Source: Bacteroidota bacterium
Lineage (GTDB): Bacteria > Bacteroidota > Bacteroidia > Bacteroidales > Lentimicrobiaceae
Direction of reading: 5' to 3'
NCBI GenBank assembly: GCA_009773515.1
Contig: WSXX01000009.1
Location: forward strand, 62,001 to 126,000
DNA: 64,000 nt
In this document: positions 16,717 to 53,265 of the stretch, one piece after another
Position numbering within the stretch: position 1 is the first letter of the stretch
Layout of the letters: every line of letters starts with the position of its first letter
Notes under the pieces: generated by a model
The model's database searches: none
Seen by the model: the letters and a program-made list of their open reading frames with translations, nothing else
What the model was told of the DNA's origin: nothing
Position numbers and translations under genes: made by a program

Positions 16717-16834
16717 GTTTCAATTATAATCTTCCCTTTTCGGGGAACAGGTATTGGCACCGTTTCTGCTGTTTGGCGGATGGTTGCCAGAGGTTCGCTG
16801 AGCCTGTCTCTCCCCTCTTCTTTATAACTCAAAC
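16717..16834 (-). ncRNA. SAM-I (S-box) riboswitch controlling metH-metF
   Basis: Read on the minus strand, the segment carries the S-box core in order: a closing P1 stem (16822-16834 with 16717-16729, about 12 of 13 pairs including wobble), the kink-turn and P2 region with AAGAAGAGGGGAGAGAC, the conserved block GGCTCAGCGAACCTCTGGCAACC split over positions 16779-16801, GGTGCCAATACCTG, and a CCC/GGG P4-like hairpin just before P1 closes. SAM-I aptamers bind S-adenosylmethionine and lower expression of methionine genes. I see no poly-U terminator between the aptamer and the metH start 122 nt away, so the output mechanism is unclear. A 77-codon open frame over this RNA is not a gene. Confidence 0.9.
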
Positions 16835-44043: not shown

Positions 44044-44075
44044 TTTGTTAATTGATCTATTGTTCATTACCTTTG
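44044..44075 (+). promoter_or_regulatory. Promoter of the DUF134-NifX-MinD cluster
   Basis: TTTG at 44044-44047 and TACCTTTG at 44068-44075 are 20 bp apart, an almost ideal Bacteroidota promoter. Start is expected near 44082, giving a leader of about 20 nt. Confidence 0.65.
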
Positions 44076-44096
44076 TAGCGAACTATTGATCATTAC
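44057..44096 (+). promoter_or_regulatory. Direct repeats CTATTG(T/A)TCATTAC flanking the -7 element
   Basis: Fourteen-base copies at 44057-44070 and 44083-44096 differ at one position. They begin 26 bp apart and cover the -7 region and the start of transcription. Placement suggests an operator, possibly for the DUF134 protein encoded just downstream. Confidence 0.5.
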
Positions 44097-44101
44097 ATAC
44101 T

Positions 44102-44692
44102 ATGTCGCCTAGAATCAAGACAATAAGAAAAGTTCTGAATCCTCCCGCAATAAAAGGGTTTAAGCCTTACGGACCGGAAACAGGAAAGCTGGATACTGAG
44201 CCGGTAAATCTCCTTTATGAGGAGTATGAAGCCTTGCGTTTGAGCGATTATGATATGCTTAATCACCATCAATCGTCTGTTTTGATGGAAGTATCGAGGC
44301 CAACTTTTACCAGAATTTATGCATCCGCATTACAAAAGATCGCCAAAGCTTTTGTTGAAGGCCGGCAAATAGCGATAAACGGGGGAAAGGTGTATTTCGA
44401 TAGCGACTGGTACAATTGCAAAGGATGTAATTGTAACTTCAATAACCCGGAAAGAGACGAGGAGATTTTAAAGTGTCCTTTGTGCGGAGACAAACGGATT
44501 AAATCATTCGACCCGGCTCAAATAAATGACGCGGAAAGTCCATCAATTACAGATGATGTATGTATATGTGCACATTGCGGATCAATGCAGCCGCACAAGG
44601 CAGGAATACCATGCAATCAGTTTGTCTGTCCTGAATGCGGAAGCCGCATGAAAAGAAAAGGAACATCAGGAGCAAAAATCAAAAAGAACTAA
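44102..44692 (+). CDS. DUF134 helix-turn-helix regulator with two extra zinc ribbons
   Basis: Residues 1-100 are a DUF134 domain: the family start SPRIKTIRKVLNPPAIKGFKP split around residues 2-22, LLYEEYEALRLSDYDML, and a sigma-like HTH (SRPTFTRIYASALQKIAKAFVEG). Usual DUF134 proteins are about 100 residues; this one has 196. The added part holds CxxC pairs at CKGC, CPLC, CAHC and CPEC, enough for two zinc ribbons or metal-sensing sites. DUF134 genes are often next to NifX-like and Mrp/MinD-like genes in anaerobes, consistent with this neighbourhood. A role as metal- or redox-responsive regulator of the cluster is inference. The next gene follows after 5 bp. Confidence 0.85.
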   Translation: MSPRIKTIRKVLNPPAIKGFKPYGPETGKLDTEPVNLLYEEYEALRLSDYDMLNHHQSSVLMEVSRPTFTRIYASALQKIAKAFVEGRQIAINGGKVYFDSDWYNCKGCNCNFNNPERDEEILKCPLCGDKRIKSFDPAQINDAESPSITDDVCICAHCGSMQPHKAGIPCNQFVCPECGSRMKRKGTSGAKIKKN

Positions 44693-44697
44693 AGATC

Positions 44698-45015
44698 ATG
44701 AAAATCGCAATTGCATCAAACGGAAACACCCTTGAATCGACCTTAGATAAAAGCTTTGGACGCTGTTCCTACTTTATAATTTACGACAGGGAAAGCAAGG
44801 CCGTTGAGTATATTCCAAACCCCAACAAGGATATGGAAGAAAACGCAGGTCCTGCTTCAGTTGAACTGGTGGCTTCAAGGTCAGTTACGAAAATCATCTC
44901 ATATGAATTCGGGATGAAAATCAAGCCACTGCTTGACAGCCTGAAAATTCAGATGATTGTGCTTAAAGATCCCGAAAAAACAATACGGGTAATTATTGAA
45001 ATGTTAAATCACTAA
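44698..45015 (+). CDS. NifX/ORP-fold small protein (first)
   Basis: From the ATG at 44698 the protein has 105 residues and the fold of the dinitrogenase iron-molybdenum cofactor family (PF02579: NifX, NafY C-terminal part, Desulfovibrio ORP). Typical are MKIAIASNGNTLESTLDKSFGRCSYF and the middle NAGPASVELVASRSVTKII. These proteins bind or carry metal-sulfur clusters. It is one of three such genes in the cluster, with no nif structural genes nearby. The longer frame starting at 44635 would overlap the regulator gene and is rejected. Confidence 0.88.
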   Translation: MKIAIASNGNTLESTLDKSFGRCSYFIIYDRESKAVEYIPNPNKDMEENAGPASVELVASRSVTKIISYEFGMKIKPLLDSLKIQMIVLKDPEKTIRVIIEMLNH

Positions 45016-45023
45016 AAAACAAT

Positions 45024-45209
45024 ATGATGCCAAAACTTGATGGAACCGGGCCGGAAGGAAAAGGAAACCTTTCGGGCAGGAAATTAGGCAAATGCCTTGA
45101 TCTTTCAACTCAGGAAAAGCTTGAAAAATTTGGCAAAGGAGCTGGAGCCCGTCGCAAAGCGGGAGGCGGCGAAGGAAAAGGAAAGCGCTTTAACAGCGGA
45201 AAACTTTAG
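45024..45209 (+). CDS. Small DUF5320-like Gly/Lys-rich protein
   Basis: The 61-residue product starts MMPKLDGTGPEGKGNLSGRK and has one cysteine (Cys24). This is the MP-x-x-DGTGP-x-G-x-G-x-(T/S)GR-x-x-GxC start of DUF5320 proteins, small basic peptides that accompany NifX/Mrp-type genes in anaerobes. The remainder is a basic, Gly-rich tail. It lies 8 bp after the first NifX-like gene. Role unknown. Confidence 0.75.
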   Translation: MMPKLDGTGPEGKGNLSGRKLGKCLDLSTQEKLEKFGKGAGARRKAGGGEGKGKRFNSGKL

Positions 45210-45224
45210 TATTCACTTTAAAAT

Positions 45225-45231
45225 AAGGAGG
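45225..45231 (+). promoter_or_regulatory. Strong Shine-Dalgarno AAGGAGG before the second DUF5320 gene
   Basis: AAGGAGG ends 5 nt before the ATG at 45237 and fixes that start. Confidence 0.6.
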
Positions 45232-45236
45232 CTATT

Positions 45237-45479
45237 ATGCCAGGCTTTGATCAAAATGGCCCTATGGGCAGAGGTCCTATGACCGGAAGGCGCATGGGAC
45301 GATGCATGAATCCAGATTCAAATACCGGAAAACAATCCCCAACAATCACCAATGATGAAGCGAAAATAAATCCGGCAGAAGACACCCGCACAAACGGCAT
45401 GGGCGCTGGCTTAGGACGGGGAAGATGTGGAAGAGGACAGGGACGGGGAATGAGAAACCGTTTCAGGGGTGGTTGCTGA
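45237..45479 (+). CDS. Small DUF5320-like Gly/Arg-rich protein
   Basis: The 80-residue product begins MPGFDQNGPMGRGPMTGRRM, a close match to the DUF5320 start, with Cys23, and ends in a Gly/Arg-rich segment with GRCGRGQGRG and a terminal cysteine. Its strong ribosome-binding site supports real expression. With the preceding gene it forms a divergent paralogous pair. Possible roles are a metal-site scaffold or accessory of the NifX-like proteins; none is established. Confidence 0.78.
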   Translation: MPGFDQNGPMGRGPMTGRRMGRCMNPDSNTGKQSPTITNDEAKINPAEDTRTNGMGAGLGRGRCGRGQGRGMRNRFRGGC

Positions 45480-45537
45480 AATTCTCCGGCAAACGACAAA
45501 AGAAATATATAGTTCAAACTCACAAAAAAGTTAAATC

Positions 45538-46050
45538 ATGGGAAAACAAGCAATTAAAGTCTCATCAGTAGATGTTGATGAACTCCTGAAGATGCTGAAT
45601 GCGGCCCTTTCAGAAGAGTGGCTGGCCTATTACCAGTATTGGATTGGTGCGAGAATGATGGAAGGCCCGATGAGAAGTGAAGTTGAGCCGGAATTGCTGC
45701 TTCATGCCGATCAGGAATTGAATCATGCTGTAATGGTTGTAAACAGGATTATCCAACTGGGAGGAACTCCGGTAATTAATCCCACAGAATGGACCAAACT
45801 GGCCCGCTGCAGTTACGACGAACCTTCGGACCCTTATATTGAAGTAATTCTGGAGCAAAATCTGCAAGGTGAAAGATGCGCCATTCAGCGTTATCAGGAA
45901 ATTGCCGACTTCACCAGCGGAAAAGACCACAGCACTCACCAGATGGCGGTTACAATTCTCAACGAAGAACTGGAACATGAAAACGACATTGAAGACTGGA
46001 TCAATGATATCAGGAGAATGAAAGAAGAATTTAAGAAAATAAGGTTTTAA
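45538..46050 (+). CDS. Ferritin-like diiron protein
   Basis: The 170-residue helical protein has ferritin-superfamily diiron signatures: SEEWLAYYQYW in helix A, ADQELNHA (ExxH) in helix B, GERCAIQRYQEIADF in helix C and NEELEHENDIEDW (ExxH) in helix D. It resembles bacterioferritin-like or Dps-related proteins of anaerobes more than classical ferritin. It may store iron or detoxify oxygen and peroxide close to the Fe-S proteins of this cluster; that is inference. It lies 58 bp after the second DUF5320 gene and 19 bp before the second NifX-like gene. Confidence 0.87.
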   Translation: MGKQAIKVSSVDVDELLKMLNAALSEEWLAYYQYWIGARMMEGPMRSEVEPELLLHADQELNHAVMVVNRIIQLGGTPVINPTEWTKLARCSYDEPSDPYIEVILEQNLQGERCAIQRYQEIADFTSGKDHSTHQMAVTILNEELEHENDIEDWINDIRRMKEEFKKIRF

Positions 46051-46069
46051 TAACACTAATAAAAATAGC

Positions 46070-46447
46070 ATGAAAAAAAGAATCGCCATACCAATGGCAG
46101 GCAGTTTATTGAGTGAGCATTTCGGACATTGTCAGGCATTTGCTTATGTAGATGTTGAGAATAACAGCATTTCTAAAATAACAATGATGGAACCCCCTGA
46201 ACATCAGCCAGGCACCTTCCCAAAATGGGTAGCTGCGAATGGCGCAACTGATGTAATAGCCGGTGGCATGGGTCCAATGGCAGTAAATCTTTTTAATGAA
46301 GCAGGAGTTAACGTTTTTGTAGGAGCTCCACTTGACACTCCTACAAATCTGGTTAATAATTTTCTGGCTGGGAAGCTGAGCCTGAGCGCCAACTATTGCG
46401 ACCATCACGGTGAAGATGACCACCACGGACATGGACACAAGCACTGA
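46070..46447 (+). CDS. NifX/ORP-fold protein with His-rich tail (second)
   Basis: The 125-residue protein has the PF02579 domain in its first 105 residues (RIAIPMAGSLLSEHFGHCQAF, then DVIAGGMGPMAVNLFNEAGV) and a metal-binding C-terminal tail with seven histidines (DHHGEDDHHGHGHKH). FGHC matches the loop that in this family approaches the cluster. The tail probably loads or stores nickel, copper, zinc or iron. The 3' end overlaps the next gene by 17 bp if that gene starts at 46431. Confidence 0.88.
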   Translation: MKKRIAIPMAGSLLSEHFGHCQAFAYVDVENNSISKITMMEPPEHQPGTFPKWVAANGATDVIAGGMGPMAVNLFNEAGVNVFVGAPLDTPTNLVNNFLAGKLSLSANYCDHHGEDDHHGHGHKH

Positions 46448-47309
46448 GAATCTCACGGTGATTGATCCGAGATGCAAAGATTGTTTATTAAGAACCTATC
46501 AGAGATTATTTGATAAGTTCGAAATTCCAGCTTCCAAACAGCATGATTTTCTGAATTATTTCAGGGAACTTATCAAAACTGGTGACTTTGCAACAACACC
46601 TGAGATACAACGGGAACTAAGCATCAGATTCTGCTCTATTTCAGGTATTGATGATCCGTTTGCAGAAGAAAAAGCAGAAAGTAATCGCATAGCTTCAGTT
46701 CTTTACACTGAATGGAAGCCAAAAGTACTGGCTTCAGACGATCCGTTTGAACTTGCGTTAAGGCTGTCGATTGCAGGAAATATCATGGATTATGGAGCCA
46801 ACAACAGATTTGACATCCATCAGACTATTGAATACGTCAACTCGGTAGATTTCGCAATTGATCATACTCATTTGTTGCAACATGAAATCAAACGGGCCAA
46901 AACAATACTCTACCTTGGTGATAATGCCGGAGAAATTGTATTTGATAAGCTATTTCTTGAAACAATCAATCATCCGGGTGTAACCTATGCAGTGAGAGGT
47001 GGAATCACACTAAATGATGTGACCTTTAAGGATGCTGAATTGATTGAGATGAATACAGTTGCACGGGTGATTTCAAACGGATTTGATGCCCCTTCAACAG
47101 TAATTGCAAGAAGCAGCGCCGAATTTTTAGCTGAATATCACCCAGCTGATCTCATAATTTCAAAAGGGCAAGGAAATCTGGAGGGACTAATTGATGAAAA
47201 CGATCCGCGAATTTTCTTTTTATTGATGGTAAAATGCGATTTGATGGCCGAAAAACTGAATGTTGTAAAAGGAAGTTTTGTTGTGTTAAATAAAACCAAA
47301 GCTCCGTGA
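46431..47309 (+). CDS. DUF89/ARMT1-like metal-dependent protein
   Basis: The product (292 residues from the ATG at 46431) belongs to the DUF89/ARMT1-like family, shown for some members to be metal-dependent phosphatases of damaged phospho-metabolites. Diagnostic are the N-terminal DPRCKDCLLRTYQ with a CxxC pair, YLGDNAGEIVFDKLF (metal-binding Asp/Asn) and IISKGQGNLEGL. An ATG at 46410 would add seven residues and deeper overlap. The N-terminal CxxC marks the prokaryotic subgroup often found near NifX-like genes. The substrate in this context is unknown. Confidence 0.85.
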   Translation: MDTSTENLTVIDPRCKDCLLRTYQRLFDKFEIPASKQHDFLNYFRELIKTGDFATTPEIQRELSIRFCSISGIDDPFAEEKAESNRIASVLYTEWKPKVLASDDPFELALRLSIAGNIMDYGANNRFDIHQTIEYVNSVDFAIDHTHLLQHEIKRAKTILYLGDNAGEIVFDKLFLETINHPGVTYAVRGGITLNDVTFKDAELIEMNTVARVISNGFDAPSTVIARSSAEFLAEYHPADLIISKGQGNLEGLIDENDPRIFFLLMVKCDLMAEKLNVVKGSFVVLNKTKAP

Positions 47310-47397
47310 GCAAGGCCTGATAATTAGTGAATCGATTCTGCGAAGTGCAGGATGTGTTTCTATCAGTAGTGAGTTTACACTTTAAATAAACAAGACT

Positions 47398-47841
47398 ATG
47401 GCAAACATCAAAGTTGGAATAATCATCTGCGACCGGTATCATACCTGTGCAGGTGGTAAATGTTTCAGATCGCTTCAGAAACGTGAAGGCGCTTTTGAAA
47501 TGTATAAAGACCACGAGGTTGAACTCGCGGCTTATACGACCTGTGGTGGATGTCCCGGCGGAAACATAGAATATGCGCCTGAAGAGATGAGAAAAAATGG
47601 TGTAACGCATGTTCATTTTGCAACAGGGTTTCTTGTTGGTTATCCTCCTTGTCCTTACATGGAACACTTTCGAAATTTCATCCCTGAAAAACATGGAATG
47701 AAAGTCATTTTCGGCACACATCCGATTCCACAAAAATACTATCTGACACATCAGAACCTTGAAACCTGGAATACCCCTTTTCTGCAGGAAGCCATTCAGC
47801 AAACTTTAACCAATGAGAAGATGAGGTTGAACTATGACTAG
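47398..47841 (+). CDS. CGGC-domain protein
   Basis: The 147-residue protein is a CGGC-domain protein (PF08821). It carries IIICDRYHTCAGGKCFRSL (three cysteines), the name-giving TTCGGCPGG (residues 48-56) and GYPPCPYM. The cysteine set suggests binding of a metal or Fe-S cluster; the family function is unknown. Its stop overlaps the start of the first MinD-type ATPase by 8 bp, so the two are translationally coupled. An 88-bp gap separates it from the DUF89 gene. Confidence 0.88.
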   Translation: MANIKVGIIICDRYHTCAGGKCFRSLQKREGAFEMYKDHEVELAAYTTCGGCPGGNIEYAPEEMRKNGVTHVHFATGFLVGYPPCPYMEHFRNFIPEKHGMKVIFGTHPIPQKYYLTHQNLETWNTPFLQEAIQQTLTNEKMRLNYD

Positions 47842-48718
47842 CCAAAAACCTTTGAAAATTGCCATCGCCAGCGGCAAAGGAGGCACAGGAAAAACTACCC
47901 TTTCAACCAATCTTGCAGCCTTTATTGCAGAACAACAGGAAGTGGTTCTGGTCGATCTTGATGTTGAAGAGCCCAATTCAGGCCTTTTCTTAAACGGTGA
48001 GATGATCCATGAAGAGTTTAATTATAAAATGACTCCTCAGTGGGATGAATCCAAATGTACTGTGTGCGGGATTTGCAGGAAGGTTTGCAATTTTCATGCG
48101 ATTATTCAACTTGGGCCATCTATTCTGGTTTTTCCTGAGTTGTGCCACAGTTGTTATGCCTGTTCGGAGTTATGCACTGTTGATGCTTTGCCGATGGTTC
48201 CTAAGAAAACCGGTATCCTGAAAGAGTTCAGCTCAGGAAACCTTCATTTTATTGAAAGCCGTCTCGATATCGGCGAGGAACAAGCTGTTCCAACCATCGC
48301 AAAGACAAAAAAATACGCAATCGGGAAATTCCCGGATGCACAATTCACACTGTTCGATTCTCCACCCGGAACTTCCTGCCCGATGATGGAAGTCATTAAA
48401 GATGTTGATTTTGTTATTCTGGTTACAGAGCCTACGCCTTTTGGCCTTCACGATCTGAGCCTTGCAGTTGAAACCATTCGTGCATACAAAAAACCCTGTG
48501 GCGTGGTTATCAACCGATACGGAATCGGCAACAACGATGTGATTGAATACTGCCAGAATGAAAACATCCCCATCCTGGCTAAGATAGCCAACAGCCGGGA
48601 AATCGCTGAATTATATTCCTCAGGAAAACTTATTTACCGGACTATTCCGGAAGTAAAAGTGGCTTTAAATGAAATTCTTGACTATTGTCTGAACAATGTG
48701 GAAGGGGGAAATAAATGA
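47834..48718 (+). CDS. MinD/Mrp-type ATPase with 2x[4Fe-4S] ferredoxin insert (first)
   Basis: This 294-residue SIMIBI-class ATPase has the deviant Walker A motif GKGGTGKTT (residues 14-22) with the signature lysine, DLDVEEPNSG as switch I, and a bacterial-ferredoxin insert with cysteines 75, 78, 81, 85 and 104, 107, 110, 114. After it comes FDSPPGTSCPMM, the Walker B/switch II region with a cysteine. The architecture matches the MinD-type ATPases of Desulfovibrio ORP loci and other tandem pairs in anaerobes. Such proteins probably couple ATP hydrolysis to assembly or transfer of a metal cluster. It overlaps the next ATPase gene by 4 bp. Confidence 0.92.
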   Translation: MTSQKPLKIAIASGKGGTGKTTLSTNLAAFIAEQQEVVLVDLDVEEPNSGLFLNGEMIHEEFNYKMTPQWDESKCTVCGICRKVCNFHAIIQLGPSILVFPELCHSCYACSELCTVDALPMVPKKTGILKEFSSGNLHFIESRLDIGEEQAVPTIAKTKKYAIGKFPDAQFTLFDSPPGTSCPMMEVIKDVDFVILVTEPTPFGLHDLSLAVETIRAYKKPCGVVINRYGIGNNDVIEYCQNENIPILAKIANSREIAELYSSGKLIYRTIPEVKVALNEILDYCLNNVEGGNK

Positions 48719-49596
48719 AAGAAATTGTTATAATTTCAGGCAAAGGCGGAACCGGAAAAACTTCACTGACAGCAGCATTTGCAGTTCTGGGCGGAAATGA
48801 TGTTGTGGTTGCTGATTGCGATGTGGATGCAGCAGATATGCATCTGTTGTTGCAACCTGATTTTAATTATTCTGATGATTTTTACAGTGGCGAACTTGCC
48901 TACATTGAACAAGCTGACTGTATAAGGTGTGGAAAATGCAAAGATGTTTGCCGGTTCGACGCAATTTCAGTCAAGCTCAACAGATTCACCATTGATCCAA
49001 TGAATTGCGAAGGCTGCGGCTATTGTGCACGTATTTGCCCTGCACACTGCATAAGAAACAAGTCACGCCTGGCCGGCAAGTGGTACATATCGAACATCAG
49101 AACCGGCAGTATAATGGTTCATGCCCGATTGGGTATTGGGGCTGATAACTCAGGAAAACTGGTGGCAAAAGTCAAAGATGAAGCCAAAGGAATTGCCATT
49201 GAAGAACAAAAAGAATTCGTTCTTATTGATGGTTCACCAGGCATAGGTTGCCCGGTGGTTTCATCACTTTCCGGAGCCAGTTTTGTCGTATTGGTTACAG
49301 AACCTTCTGTTTCCGGCCTTCATGATTTAAAGCGTGTTTATGAACTGGTTAAAAAATTCAAAATTAGAGCTGCTTGCATTATCAATAAAGCCGATATAAA
49401 CCTTGTAAAGTGCGCTGAAATTGAGCAGTTTCTTGCAGAAGAAGGTATAGTGCATTTAGCGGATCTGCCTTATGATGAAAACTTTACCAAAGCTATGACA
49501 CAAGGTCAAACCATCGTTGAATACGATGATGGTCTTTTGAAAGACCTGGTGACGGATAGCTGGGAGAAAGTGAAAAGGTTGGTAAGAGAAGAGTGA
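48715..49596 (+). CDS. MinD/Mrp-type ATPase with 2x[4Fe-4S] ferredoxin insert (second)
   Basis: The 293-residue paralogue has Walker A GKGGTGKTS (residues 9-17), DCDVDAADMH, ferredoxin cysteines 69, 72, 75, 79 and 98, 101, 104, 108, and DGSPGIGCPVVSSLSGA with the matching cysteine. A strict tandem with 4-bp overlap and similar length suggests that the two products form a heterodimer in which the ATP sites meet at the interface, as MinD-family members do. The reduced clusters may supply electrons for cluster building on the NifX-like partners; that is inference. Confidence 0.92.
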   Translation: MKEIVIISGKGGTGKTSLTAAFAVLGGNDVVVADCDVDAADMHLLLQPDFNYSDDFYSGELAYIEQADCIRCGKCKDVCRFDAISVKLNRFTIDPMNCEGCGYCARICPAHCIRNKSRLAGKWYISNIRTGSIMVHARLGIGADNSGKLVAKVKDEAKGIAIEEQKEFVLIDGSPGIGCPVVSSLSGASFVVLVTEPSVSGLHDLKRVYELVKKFKIRAACIINKADINLVKCAEIEQFLAEEGIVHLADLPYDENFTKAMTQGQTIVEYDDGLLKDLVTDSWEKVKRLVREE

Positions 49597-49821
49597 AAAA
49601 TGAAAAGTGAAGAGTGAATGCCTTGGGAACGCGAAGCGATAACGAGGAAAAGTGAAAAATCAATGACTGACGGAAGGTCATTGTAAATAATTACTTAAAT
49701 GCCAAATCAGAGCGTCCTTCTCCTTGAGGAGAAGGTGCCCCAAGGGCGGATGAGGTGAAAGGTTAAAAGTTAGTGACAATAAATCATTGACATTGAAGTG
49801 AAAACAATAAAAACAAATAAA
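49597..49821. repeat. Intergenic repeat-like segment with REP hairpin
   Basis: The 225-bp gap begins with AG-rich near-repeats (GTGAAAAATGAAAAGTGAAGAGTGAA) and holds a hairpin CCTTCTCCT-TG-AGGAGAAGG at 49716-49735 followed by GTGCCCCAAGGGCGGATGAGG. The latter string resembles a dispersed Bacteroidota repeat I recall from other genomes. It splits the gene cluster and may mark a later insertion. Confidence 0.45.
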
Positions 49822-50160
49822 ATGAAAATTGCATTTACCTCTTCCGGAACGACCTGGGAGTCAATTATTGACCCACGTTTCGGAAGAACAGAATACATCG
49901 TCATTTTTGACGAAGAGAGTCAGGAATTAAGCGCTGTTGACAACAGTTCAGTAAAAAACGAGGCACATGGGGCAGGAACTGCAACATCGCAGCGGGTATT
50001 TGAACTGAGCCCCGATGTACTCATCACAGGAAACGGCCCCGGCGACAATGCTTCAACCGCATTAAAGCATTTAAAAATGAAAATACTGGTGAATGCCCAT
50101 GATCTTACGTTAAGGCAAGCCTATGAAAAATACAAAAATGGAGAATTGAAGGAAGTGTAA
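49822..50160 (+). CDS. NifX/ORP-fold small protein (third)
   Basis: From the ATG at 49822 the product has 112 residues and the full PF02579 pattern: MKIAFTSSGTTWESIIDPRFGRTEY, GAGTATSQRVFELSPDVLITGNGPGDNA and a C-terminal ARG-free helix YEKYKNGELKEV. The third family member in 6 kb, it is most like the short, untagged ORP type (about 12 kDa). A GTG at 49798 would add eight residues and is not needed. It is separated from the ATPases by the repeat-like segment and followed by the adenosyltransferase gene after 27 bp. Confidence 0.88.
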   Translation: MKIAFTSSGTTWESIIDPRFGRTEYIVIFDEESQELSAVDNSSVKNEAHGAGTATSQRVFELSPDVLITGNGPGDNASTALKHLKMKILVNAHDLTLRQAYEKYKNGELKEV

Positions 50161-50187: not shown

Positions 50188-50700
50188 ATGAGCGGATACA
50201 TCCATCTCTACACCGGCAATGGAAAAGGCAAAACCACAGCTGCGCTGGGTCTTGCACTCAGGGCTGCAGGAGCGGGCAAACGCATATTTATTGCTCAATT
50301 TGTGAAAGGAATGCATTACGCAGAACTGGATGCATTAACCCGCTTCCCGGAAATTGAACTGAAACAATACGGTCTGGATTGCTTTATTGTGAACGAGCCA
50401 ACCCAAAAAGATATTGATGCAGCGCGGCAAGGATTGACAGAAGTGACTGCAATAATTACAGGAAACAAATGTGACATAGTAATACTCGATGAACTCTGCA
50501 TTGCACTTCATTATCATCTTTTTGAAACAGAAGAGATACTTTCACTTCTGAATGCTAAACCGGACAATATGGAAATCGTGATGACCGGACGTTACGCTCC
50601 TCCGGAACTCTATGATGTTGCCGATCTGGTAACCGAAATGACCGAAATTAAACATTACTACTCAAAAGGAATTGAAGCCCGCAAGGGAATTGAATTTTAA
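50188..50700 (+). CDS. cobO: Corrinoid adenosyltransferase (CobO/CobA/BtuR type)
   Basis: CobO transfers the 5'-deoxyadenosyl group of ATP to the cobalt of cob(I)yrinic acid a,c-diamide or cobinamide, making coenzyme B12. The 170-residue product has the P-loop GNGKGKTTAALGLALRAAG near its start (residues 10-28), FVKGM and the VILDELCIAL and VMTGR motifs of the CobA-type fold. It would provide the adenosyl form from scavenged corrinoids. No other cobalamin genes are in the window, and no cobalamin riboswitch precedes it. Its link to the neighbouring Fe-S genes is unexplained. Confidence 0.93.
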   Translation: MSGYIHLYTGNGKGKTTAALGLALRAAGAGKRIFIAQFVKGMHYAELDALTRFPEIELKQYGLDCFIVNEPTQKDIDAARQGLTEVTAIITGNKCDIVILDELCIALHYHLFETEEILSLLNAKPDNMEIVMTGRYAPPELYDVADLVTEMTEIKHYYSKGIEARKGIEF

Positions 50701-50716
50701 CTAAATACTACGAAAA

Positions 50717-51898
50717 ATGAACACGAATGACAAAGGTTTCAACACCAAACTAATCCATGCAGGTGCTTTTGACGACGAATTCGGGAGCGCAACTGTTCCC
50801 ATCTACCAATCATCAACCTTCAGGTTTAAAAGTGCACAGGATGGTGCCGATTGCTTTTCAGGGAAAAGCGACGGATACATTTATACCCGCATCGGAAATC
50901 CAACAATCAGGGCATTTGAACAAAACATTGCTGCACTTGAAAACGGGTTCGACGGCATTGCAACCAGTTCAGGAATGGGCGCAATCACCAGCGTTTACAT
51001 GGCTCTGTTGGGTGCAGGCAGTCACATTGTAAGCTCTGATGCCGTTTATGGTCCGGCACGTGGTGTGCTCGAACAGGATTTCTCCAGATTTAATGTGGAA
51101 GCCAGTTTTGTAAATACTTCGAACACCGACAACATTATCGCAGCCATAAAACCCAACACCAAAGTTTTGTATATTGAAACTCCGGCAAATCCAACCATGG
51201 ATATTACCGATATTGTTGCCTGTGCAAAAATCGCAAAAGAACACAACCTGATTCTTGTGGTTGACAACACTTTCTGCTCACCTTACCTGCAGAAACCACT
51301 CGATCTGGGTGCAGATGTGGTACTCCATTCCATCACAAAGTTCATCAATGGCCATGCTGATATTGTTGGCGGTGTGATTGTAACAAAAGATCCGGAATTA
51401 TACAAGAAGATCAGGCATTCAATGGTTTACATGGGTTGCAATATGGACCCCACACAGGCATTTATGGTTATCAGGGGTGTAAAAACCCTTGCAATAAGGA
51501 TTGAGCGGGCCCAGGAAAACGCAATGAAAGTAGCTCACTTCCTGCAATCGCATCCTAAAGTTGCCTGGATCAGATATCCCGGACTGGAAGATCATCCACA
51601 ATACGAACTGGCATGTAAACAAATGAAAGGCTTTGGTTCAATGATGAGTTTTGGCCTTAAAGGTGGCTATGATGCAGGCAAGAAACTGATGGATCACCTG
51701 CATCTGGCAATTCTGGCAGTATCGCTTGGTGGCGTAGAAACACTCATTCAACACCCTGCCTCTATGACCCATGCGGCTGTAAGCCACGAAAATAAAATTG
51801 CCGCAGGAATTACCGACGATCTTGTCAGGTTTTCTGTTGGTATTGAAGATGTTGAAGACATTATTGAAGACCTGAGAAAAGGTCTGGAAACAGTATAA
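50717..51898 (+). CDS. Methionine gamma-lyase-like PLP enzyme
   Basis: The 393-residue protein is a cystathionine gamma-lyase-superfamily PLP enzyme with the Schiff-base lysine in SITKFINGHAD (Lys208), DNTFCSPYLQKPLDLGADVV, YTRIGNP and GVETLIQHPASMTH. Overall it resembles methionine gamma-lyase, which releases methanethiol from methionine or H2S from homocysteine. The cysteine that follows the active-site Tyr-Gly in Pseudomonas methionine gamma-lyase (Cys116) is Pro113 here, so other trans-sulfuration activities such as cystathionine gamma-lyase are possible. It is 16 bp after cobO and 11 bp before the flavoprotein. Release of sulfide or thiols would suit the sulfur metabolism seen elsewhere in the window. 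Confidence 0.82.
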   Translation: MNTNDKGFNTKLIHAGAFDDEFGSATVPIYQSSTFRFKSAQDGADCFSGKSDGYIYTRIGNPTIRAFEQNIAALENGFDGIATSSGMGAITSVYMALLGAGSHIVSSDAVYGPARGVLEQDFSRFNVEASFVNTSNTDNIIAAIKPNTKVLYIETPANPTMDITDIVACAKIAKEHNLILVVDNTFCSPYLQKPLDLGADVVLHSITKFINGHADIVGGVIVTKDPELYKKIRHSMVYMGCNMDPTQAFMVIRGVKTLAIRIERAQENAMKVAHFLQSHPKVAWIRYPGLEDHPQYELACKQMKGFGSMMSFGLKGGYDAGKKLMDHLHLAILAVSLGGVETLIQHPASMTHAAVSHENKIAAGITDDLVRFSVGIEDVEDIIEDLRKGLETV

Positions 51899-51909
51899 AA
51901 AACAAAAAA

Positions 51910-53265
51910 ATGAAAAAGACAGATGTATTGATAATTGGCGGAAGCGCGGCCGGAATGGTTGCTGCAGTAACAGGTAAATCATCGTGGAGTGATAAAAGCT
52001 TTATTCTGGTAAAGAAACAGAAGGACATGATGGTTCCCTGCGGTATCCCTTACATTTTTGGCACACTCGAAAGCAGTCAGCAAAACATTATGCCTGTGGA
52101 TACAATGCTGGCAAAATCGGGCGTCGAATCACTGGTGAATGAAGTAGTTGCCATAGACAAAGAGGCAAAAACCGTTACTCTTGATGATGGCCAGCTGATC
52201 GGCTACGACAAACTTGTAATTGCAACCGGATCAACTCCTTTAAAACCCGAATGGCTCAAAGGTGCCGATCTCGACAATGTTTTTGTGATACCGAAAGACA
52301 AAACCTACCTTGATGTAATGAAAGGCAAAATTGACAATCTGAAGAAGGTTGTTGTAATCGGAGCCGGATTTATCGGGGTTGAGTTTTCAGATGAACTTCA
52401 AAAAAATGGTCATGAAGTCTGGCTTATCGAAAAAGAAAAATCGATTCTGTATTCTGCCTTTGATGATGAAATTGCTTCAAGGGTTGCAGGCATACTTGAA
52501 AACCGCGGCGTTAAGATTATCACCGGAAACGGAATAAGCGAAGTAACCGGAACAACTAAAGCGGAAGGCGTAAGACTGGAGAACGGCGATATACTTGAAG
52601 CCGATGCAGTTATTCTATCAATGGGATATAAACCCAATACCGAACTGGCTGCAAAAGCTGGAATTTTTGTTGATGAAAGTGGTTTTATCGCTGTTGATGA
52701 ATATATGCGCACCCATGTTAAAGATATATTTGCGATTGGTGACTGTGCCCAGAAACGCGATTTTATCACACGCAAACGTGTTCCTACGATGCTTGCCTCT
52801 ACAGCTTGCGCTGAAGCCCGTGTTGCCGGAATGAATCTTTTCAACATACATGTTGTAAAAACTTTCAGCGGAACCATTGGCATTTACTCAACCGCCATAG
52901 GTGAATATGGATTTGGCACAGCTGGTTTAACTGAAAACAGAGCTGATGAAGAAAATATTGCCGTTGTAACCGGCGTTTTCGAAGGTATTGACCGTCACCC
53001 CGGAAATCTGCCTGACACCCACAAGCAATTGGTAAAACTGATTGTTGCAAAATACTCCGGCGTTATAGTTGGTGGTGAAGTAATTGGCGGGCTCAGTGCC
53101 GGTGAGTTAACCAATGTAATCGGTCTGGCGATTGAAAACCGCATGTCGATCAACGGATTACTCATTTCACAAATTGGCACTCACCCTTGCCTTACCGCAT
53201 CGCCGGCTGCATATCCACTGATCAAAGCTGCCGAAATTATTTCAGCAAAACTCAGAAATCTTTAA
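51910..53265 (+). CDS. CoA-disulfide reductase-like FAD oxidoreductase
   Basis: The 451-residue protein belongs to the single-cysteine group of FAD/NAD(P)H disulfide reductases (CoA-disulfide reductase, NADH oxidase, NADH peroxidase, persulfide reductase). It has GGSAAGMVAA at residues 10-19 for FAD, the redox-active Cys44 in MMVPCGIPY, a second Rossmann motif VIGAGFIGVE, and IFAIGDCAQ. Cys44 aligns with Cys43 of Staphylococcus CoA-disulfide reductase. The exact substrate (CoA disulfide, polysulfide, persulfide or O2) cannot be decided. The link to a thiol-releasing enzyme favours a sulfur substrate. A terminator follows at 53287-53322. Confidence 0.85.
   Translation: MKKTDVLIIGGSAAGMVAAVTGKSSWSDKSFILVKKQKDMMVPCGIPYIFGTLESSQQNIMPVDTMLAKSGVESLVNEVVAIDKEAKTVTLDDGQLIGYDKLVIATGSTPLKPEWLKGADLDNVFVIPKDKTYLDVMKGKIDNLKKVVVIGAGFIGVEFSDELQKNGHEVWLIEKEKSILYSAFDDEIASRVAGILENRGVKIITGNGISEVTGTTKAEGVRLENGDILEADAVILSMGYKPNTELAAKAGIFVDESGFIAVDEYMRTHVKDIFAIGDCAQKRDFITRKRVPTMLASTACAEARVAGMNLFNIHVVKTFSGTIGIYSTAIGEYGFGTAGLTENRADEENIAVVTGVFEGIDRHPGNLPDTHKQLVKLIVAKYSGVIVGGEVIGGLSAGELTNVIGLAIENRMSINGLLISQIGTHPCLTASPAAYPLIKAAEIISAKLRNL

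Follow-up and report, generated by a model that had tools for sequence, protein, structure and literature searches.

The window, a 64,000-nucleotide stretch of contig WSXX01000009.1 from a Bacteroidota genome (5,034,399 bases in 67 contigs, 97.2% complete), carries at positions 44044–50160 a run of forward-strand genes that, judged by sequence comparison, belongs by its core to the orange protein (ORP) kind. We class it as a variant rather than the Desulfovibrio system itself because a fused MrpORP and sigma54 control are absent. We favor the reading that it is an ORP-type operon with extensions, from a member of the Bacteroidales that is probably anaerobic, and that, on balance, its products probably assemble, hold, and hand on an anionic metal-sulfide cluster. 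Newly seen are a palindromic operator that goes with the DUF134 gene, a link between DUF5320 peptides and NifX-fold proteins in two phyla, and recurrent neighbors from sulfur and Fe-S metabolism. The evidence throughout consists of sequence comparisons and models of single proteins.

An ORP-type core and its conservation

Pfam and a list of open reading frames place three PF02579 (NifX-fold) proteins, two DUF5320 peptides, a ferritin-like protein, a DUF89 protein, a CGGC-domain protein, and two overlapping ferredoxin-MinD ATPases within this run. All of these genes had been named, and correctly placed, in an initial annotation of the window, which missed DUF134 and its operator, the downstream sulfur genes, and the close link between DUF5320 and NifX-fold genes. 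The whole genome has just three PF02579 matches, and all three lie inside the run.

Related loci were collected by scanning peptides of NX2, the second NifX-fold protein, against a genome collection of 84,980 species. The 50 loci obtained are only those that match short NX2 peptides, not a random sample, and their relatedness is ignored (no de-duplication). The relatives are metagenome-assembled genomes, gene counts were made within the fetched stretches with contig ends ignored, and gene starts were assigned by script as the nearest ATG. Twenty-two of the loci are close to the window (72–88% identity) and 28 are distant (40–58% identity); 46 are from Bacteroidota, two from Ignavibacteria, one from Halanaerobiales, and one from Eggerthellales. 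The core order DUF134-NX1-DUF5320-NX2-MinDa-MinDb is common to most of them, with MinDa present in 47 of the 50 loci, MinDb in 44, NX1 in 44, and DUF134 in 42. Two loci (L015, from Lentimicrobium, and L016) retain the flanking genes too. Because the arrangement recurs in related loci, it is more than chance, and the co-occurrence of these families that the initial annotation had proposed as a check is what we find. Synteny also suggests that the host bacterium is probably a member of the Bacteroidales akin to Lentimicrobiaceae, and probably anaerobic.

For each NifX-fold protein, we built a profile from relatives and compared it with the sequences of solved structures. With NX3 (49822–50160; PF02579 at 37.5 bits; without cysteine; n = 16), ORP from D. 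gigas (2wfb) ranks first at 68.0 bits, and the runner-up scores 53.5 bits. With NX1 (44698–45015; PF02579 at 41.4 bits; n = 20), TM1290 (57.7 bits) and MTH1175 (52.5 bits) lead and ORP is third (41.3 bits); Cys23 of NX1, in an FGRC motif, is retained in 38 of 43 relatives. With NX2 (46070–46447; PF02579 at 59.3 bits; n = 24), TM1816 is at the top (81.7 bits) and ORP is eighth of eight (22.3 bits). NX2 also matches the NCBIfam model for MrpORP (NF041136) at 110.5 bits over its ORP half, where the cut-off for the whole protein is 450. By these profile comparisons, NX3 is related to ORP and NX2 to the ORP domain of MrpORP. NX3 is present in 21 of the 50 related loci.

In NX2, His17, His20, Cys21, His45, Cys110, and His112 are kept in 49 or 50 of 50 relatives. 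This set includes the HFGHC and CDH motifs, which are proposed as ligands in MrpORP (PMC6345978, excerpt). The MrpORP motifs are CXHFGHCE and CDH; NX2 shows HFGHCQ and CDH, with Ser15 in place of the first cysteine, and the corresponding column holds a cysteine in 26 of 50 NX2 relatives. NX2 ends in a His-rich tail, CDHHGEDDHHGHGHKH. Its AlphaFold model has the NifX fold with a mean confidence (pLDDT) of 85.8 and with residues 113–125 under 50, and a Foldseek search with this model is led by PH0822 and TM1816, with ORP at rank 9, NafY at rank 14, and NifX at rank 15. NX2 and MinDb were each modelled alone as single proteins, and we infer that the NX2 ligands cluster. Among 51 NX2 sequences (including the window's), 23 have the first cysteine and no tail, 21 have the tail and no cysteine, 4 have neither, and 3 have both, with kinship ignored; one of the four with neither (L020) runs into a stretch of X, so that its end is lost, and should not count. 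This distribution is at most suggestive of the tail substituting for the first cysteine. The initial annotation had listed the His-tailed copy as an addition that it did not know from the ORP operon; MrpORP of Peptoclostridium also ends in a His-rich tail (CNHNHDHGDECGQ), which rules out the tail as a new invention.

MinDa (47834–48718) and MinDb (48715–49596, overlapping MinDa) are P-loop ATPases with an inserted 2x[4Fe-4S] ferredoxin. Both retain the deviant Walker A motif, and the eight ferredoxin cysteines are intact in 47 of 47 MinDa relatives and in 44 of 44 MinDb relatives. The same relatives all hold an extra cysteine shortly past switch II (Cys182 in MinDa, Cys179 in MinDb), and these two residues may lie at the face of a MinDa-MinDb dimer as a bridging site. 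We take the core of an ORP operon to be ORP plus two ATPases; here, MinDa, MinDb, and NX3 are adjacent, with eight plus eight conserved cysteines. The likeness to ORP that the initial annotation had pointed out is therefore upheld by the best match of NX3 to 2wfb, by the paired ferredoxin-MinD ATPases, and by the match of NX2 to the ORP half of MrpORP.

A conserved operator in the DUF134 promoter

The first gene of the run, DUF134 (44102–44692; PF02001 at 68.7 bits), encodes a helix-turn-helix (HTH) protein with a Cys-rich C-terminal half. Its promoter (44044–44075) has a −33 element, TTTG, at 44044–44047 and a −7 element, TACCTTTG, at 44068–44075. We take these elements to be of the Bacteroidota type; relatives share the layout. 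A scan for sigma-70-type promoters found 17, as compared to 22.2 expected from shuffles, so there was no excess. Between the two elements lies the palindrome TGATCTATTGTTCA (site 1, 44053–44066), which is conserved 5′ of DUF134, and site 2, CGAACTATTGATCA (44079–44092), lies 26 bp downstream of it. In most loci, the 14-base palindrome 5′ of DUF134 has the form TGAWC-N4-GWTCA and is placed between the promoter elements, and a second site 26 bp onward is visible in many relatives.

The strict operator and the promoter occur together within a set distance in 37 of 43 DUF134 loci (42 relatives plus the window). Elsewhere in these loci, the pattern occurs three times. In L015, it lies at the same promoter, outside the set distance. 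In L011 (4031–6554), the operator stands directly before an hdrC-like gene, and the hdrC- and hdrB-like genes there are divergent from a second pair of DUF134 and NifX-like genes. In L025 (3189–5549), apart from the main operon, it precedes a gene for a small membrane peptide that contains cysteine, the remnant of a broken DUF134 gene, and genes for a lyase and a peroxiredoxin. In the window's own genome, the strict pattern has a single match, at the window's DUF134 promoter. A pattern with a variable spacer also has one match. It lies about 30 bases 5′ of the matched region in the second DUF134 gene of this genome (L096; G000:C31:62952–63283), which has a methionine gamma-lyase-like gene directly downstream. 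The variable-spacer pattern was designed after that second promoter had been sighted, so its uniqueness is a result and its fit there is no prediction. Backward controls of both genome-wide searches gave zero matches.

A loose version of the palindrome is found in 41 of 45 regions upstream of DUF134 (window excluded) versus 1,006 of 10,000 random 400-bp stretches from the same loci. Because the loose palindrome alone is weak, our claim of a conserved palindromic operator within the promoter rests on the strict site, the promoter, and the genome-wide rarity of the pattern, and as a statement about these sequences we regard it as shown. The two patterns find nothing in the genome but its two DUF134 promoters, which makes DUF134 a probable autoregulator of the operon. 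Two loci (L032 and L083) share a similar DUF134 N-terminus and have TGAGA-N4-TCTCA palindromes instead, as would be expected if DUF134 itself binds the site; from these two cases, co-variation of regulator and operator in a DUF134 sublineage is possible. More broadly, among 198 Bacteroidota genomes, 54 have DUF134 above the cut-off and 71 have PF02579, the 54 all being among these 71, and 36 of 74 DUF134 copies lie within 2 kb of PF02579. In the portions of the literature that we searched, a study of DUF134 was not evident; the term also catches DUF1340–1349, and the match in PMC10434189 is to DUF1349.

The genes were originally described as co-directional behind one promoter. The common strand and the promoter at 44044 are borne out. 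The 225 bases from MinDb to NX3 (49597–49821) hold no evident forward-strand gene, so a single transcript may not reach NX3, which may be transcribed from its own promoter. The same-strand run extends past 50160, into the genes for the CobO, methionine gamma-lyase-like, and CoA-disulfide-reductase-like proteins. A search for riboswitches at the locus found none reaching the gathering threshold; farther away, and unrelated to the locus, the window has a SAM riboswitch (RF00162, 74.5 bits) at 16721–16830 on the reverse strand.

DUF5320 peptides, neighboring genes, and possible functions

DUF5320a (45024–45209; PF17253 at 39.2 bits, cut-off 27) is cationic and Gly-rich, with an isoelectric point (pI) of 10.2, glycine at 15 of 61 residues, and one cysteine. 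DUF5320b (45237–45479; 35.1 bits, same cut-off) is Arg/Gly-rich, with a pI of 11.3, glycine at 18 of 80 residues, and three cysteines. Among the 44 related loci that have both NX1 and NX2, a DUF5320-like peptide lies between them in 39, and 40 of the 50 loci have one anywhere. Beyond this count, L039 has a variant that our pattern missed and L050 has a truncated copy; no such peptide was seen between NX1 and NX2 in L030, L040, and L046. The 46 DUF5320-like peptides from the 40 loci have pI values of 8.9–12.0, and 39 of them have exactly one cysteine; the peptide of L084 has several tryptophans among its glycines and arginines.

The link to NifX-fold genes extends to a second phylum. DUF5320 scores above the cut-off in 5 of 198 Bacteroidota genomes (that of the window included), and the six copies there each begin no more than 0.6 kb from a PF02579 match; in one further Bacteroidota genome, which lacks PF02579, a long frame gives a DUF5320 match below the cut-off. 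The phylum to which the Halanaerobiales locus belongs was sampled with 101 genomes; DUF5320 is present in 55 of these, and at least 43 of the 61 copies are within 5 kb of PF02579. (In this phylum, 76 genomes have PF02579 matches, 73 of them among the matches listed, so the co-location counts are lower bounds.) In the parts of the literature searched, DUF5320 scarcely occurs as a term. The peptides partly resemble, in charge, glycine content, and a mostly single cysteine, the basic tail of IssA, which is the thioferrate storage protein of Pyrococcus furiosus. That tail is 70 residues long with a pI of 10.7; it has 15 glycines, 14 aromatic and 7 cationic residues, and the single cysteine of the protein (PMC5524996, excerpt).

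The remaining genes of the run are less constant. The CGGC-domain protein (47398–47841; PF08821 at 97 bits) is found in 29 of the 50 loci, and the DUF89/ARMT1-like metal-dependent phosphatase (46410–47309; PF01937 at 176 bits; overlapping NX2, exact start uncertain) in 18, so both are frequent accessories outside the core. The ferritin-like, Dps-like protein (45538–46050; PF00210 at 97 bits) has an archaeal Dps model as its nearest NCBIfam match, with a score under the model's cut-off. Its gene is on the operon strand in just 4 of the 50 loci (L014 has one upstream, on the opposite strand), which rules it out as a defining part. Hence, among the additions that the initial annotation thought might define a variant system, the ferritin-like protein drops out and the DUF89 and CGGC proteins are frequent companions. 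Downstream of NX3 are a CobO-type corrinoid adenosyltransferase (50188–50700; in 11 of the 50 loci, comprising 11 of the 22 close and none of the 28 distant ones), a methionine gamma-lyase-like enzyme (50717–51898; in 15 loci, 12 close and 3 distant) that is a candidate source of sulfide or thiol, and a CoA-disulfide-reductase-like flavoprotein (51910–53265; best model at 239 bits, below its cut-off of 458; in 18 loci) that is a candidate per- or polysulfide reductase.

Among the recurrent neighbors in related loci, of which one representative per family was confirmed by Pfam, the most frequent extra enzyme is a radical SAM protein (14 of the 50 loci), and others are an AhpC-type peroxiredoxin (10 loci), HdrC-like (7) and HdrB-like (6) proteins, and a ZIP-family transporter (5). 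An Mrp-like gene is found in 23 loci (weak matches, read by motif; the one that was checked matches PF10609 at 304 bits), and L011 has a NifU_N scaffold gene. As a side observation, one Bacteroidota genome has a second NifX-ATPase cluster (L085; G051:C44:46000–64000), which includes CGGC, an Mrp-like gene, and several genes of the NifX type, and this genome holds eight PF02579 matches. Taken together with the lyase and CoA-disulfide-reductase-like genes, the recurrent neighbors indicate sulfide and Fe-S chemistry. The initial proposal that the locus would build or move a metal-sulfur cluster is supported as an inference.

As to the metal, the neighboring genes favor iron and the nearest solved relative of NX3 favors Mo-Cu. 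The NifX-fold proteins might instead be carriers of thiomolybdate-copper clusters, like ORP of D. gigas, and serve Mo/Cu homeostasis or copper detoxification, which we think is rather unlikely. The top rank of 2wfb for NX3 would fit this, as would three PF00994 matches (molybdopterin-biosynthesis type) in the genome, although one of these is perhaps CinA. Furthermore, Orp8-type proteins bear an S2MoS2CuS2MoS2 cluster (PMC6345978, excerpt). However, most distant loci are without NX3 and yet keep NX1, NX2, and the ATPases; the recurrent neighbors are Fe-S and sulfur genes; and the Pfam-checked recurrent genes include no Mo or Cu transporter; one of them is the ZIP transporter.

We also consider it improbable that the MinD pair is an electron donor, similar to nitrogenase reductase, for an enzyme or for syntrophic redox metabolism, with the NifX-fold proteins as chaperones of that enzyme's cofactor. 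A Foldseek search with the MinDb model (mean pLDDT 93.7) places MinD first, the nitrogenase Fe protein from rank 14 on, and then BchL and the methylthio-alkane reductase complex; some loci have HdrBC-like genes; and homologues in A. fulgidus and D. vulgaris have been tied to syntrophy (PMC3949148, excerpt). But there is no constant catalytic partner, as even the radical SAM protein is missing from most of the 50 loci. A polar or membrane-positioned MinD-like system tied to cell division, as once proposed for ORP, is highly improbable: the MinD fold of the MinDb model, the C-terminal regions of MinDa and MinDb (whose hydrophobic moment is the highest or nearly the highest, as compared only within the same protein), the polar location of MrpORP, and the amphipathic C-terminal helix of Orp3 and Orp4 (PMC6345978, excerpt) would fit, but the recurrent neighbors are sulfur, metal, and Fe-S genes.

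If the locus does handle an anionic metal-sulfide cluster, then the lyase- and CoA-disulfide-reductase-like enzymes would supply sulfide, which would be joined to a metal on the small NifX-fold proteins. The ligands in NX2 would be His17, His20, Cys21, His45, Cys110, and His112, and NX3, like ORP, would bind with no cysteine. Acting in trans, the basic DUF5320 peptides would neutralize and shield the metal-sulfide, the role proposed in cis for the basic tail of IssA. MinDa and MinDb would pair in a NifH-like, ATP-gated manner; their four [4Fe-4S] clusters would supply electrons to the metal-sulfide cluster or transfer it, and the extra cysteines after switch II may meet at the dimer face. DUF134 would repress the operon from both operator sites, until metal or redox state alters its Cys-rich half. 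A more specific and general version, which we offer only tentatively, is a two-piece, trans-acting system for metal-sulfide storage and assembly that would be widespread in anaerobes: NifX-fold proteins would nucleate the material, DUF5320 would stabilize it as the detached equivalent of the IssA tail, the ATP-gated ferredoxin-MinD heterodimer would load or unload it, and DUF134 would be an autorepressor that responds to metal, sulfide, or redox state.

Several observations weigh against our account. NX3 is present in just 1 of the 28 distant loci, and the sulfur genes are as inconstant as the counts above imply (15 and 18 of the 50 loci). No Mrp gene was seen in the window's locus, and the genome's single strong Mrp lies elsewhere (C64). 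The strict operator is missing from 6 of the 43 DUF134 loci (L004, L015, L032, L035, L050, and L051), and in L006 (position 7012), operator and promoter lie upstream of DUF5320-NX2 on a 12.8-kb contig in which DUF134 was not found. Of the 74 DUF134 copies in Bacteroidota, 38 have no PF02579 within 2 kb. In the second phylum, PF02579 has no match in 7 of the 55 genomes with DUF5320, and for 18 of the 61 copies there is no listed match within 5 kb. Finally, the IssA tail has 14 aromatics among its 70 residues, whereas DUF5320a has 2 of 61 and DUF5320b 2 of 80, and the cysteines of DUF5320b number three, against one in IssA.

As late as 2019, the function of the orange protein was described as unknown (PMC6650914). 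The locus offers handles on this role: a regulator that is probably dedicated to it and has a defined operator, a small basic peptide (DUF5320) as a regular partner, and a separated ORP domain with its conserved His/Cys set. Sequence allows the DUF134 regulon to be traced, and in some relatives it includes genes for sulfur and Fe-S metabolism. If our reading is true, then metal-sulfide clusters would have one more general route of storage and delivery in anaerobes.

Comparison with known systems

As in NifX, NafY, and NifB of nitrogenase cofactor assembly, the PF02579 fold would serve here as a cluster carrier, and a radical SAM gene is nearby in some related loci (14 of 50, as above). A difference is that the genome (97.2% complete) has no NifB with a PF02579 domain, because its only three PF02579 matches are the small proteins of the locus; nitrogenase genes were not searched for. 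The likeness to IssA is a NifX domain together with a basic, Gly-rich segment with mostly one cysteine. Here, though, the segment is on separate, aromatic-poor peptides, and no NX protein of the locus has a cationic Gly/aromatic-rich tail of the IssA type; thioferrate nanoparticles are a feature of IssA.

The ORP system of Desulfovibrio vulgaris comprises Orp3, Orp4, Orp5, Orp8, and Orp9, and MrpORP hands Fe-S to Orp3/Orp4; we compared this operon by its published description only (PMC6345978, excerpt). In both systems, an ORP-type NifX protein (NX3 here) adjoins two ferredoxin-MinD ATPases and an MrpORP-type ORP domain is present, but the ORP domain of Orp9 is here a separate protein, NX2, and the fused MrpORP is absent from the window's locus. 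Desulfovibrio has two divergent operons under sigma54 control, whereas the genes here are co-directional, with a −33/−7 promoter and DUF134 with its operator; none of the 17 proteins scanned is a sigma54 activator, and the divergent neighbor is a thioesterase. Orp5, a small [2Fe-2S] protein, has no evident counterpart among the families found, as judged without the Orp5 sequence. The window's locus further differs by its extra NX1, two DUF5320, DUF89, CGGC, and ferritin-like genes and by the sulfur enzymes downstream.

Other arrangements of these genes are known outside Desulfovibrio. Three plasmid records were found with MinDb as the query, and one of these is nearly without annotation. A Chloroflexota plasmid has NifX-ATPase-ATPase, then DUF59 and a peroxiredoxin, with an HTH regulator and DUF5320 just upstream on the opposite strand. 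Peptoclostridium acidaminophilum (NZ_CP007453.1) differs from the window in having a single NifX gene, a fused MrpORP, and no DUF5320 listed in the row; it resembles the window in its row DUF134-NifX-ATPase-ATPase-MrpORP and in the His-rich tail of its ORP domain.

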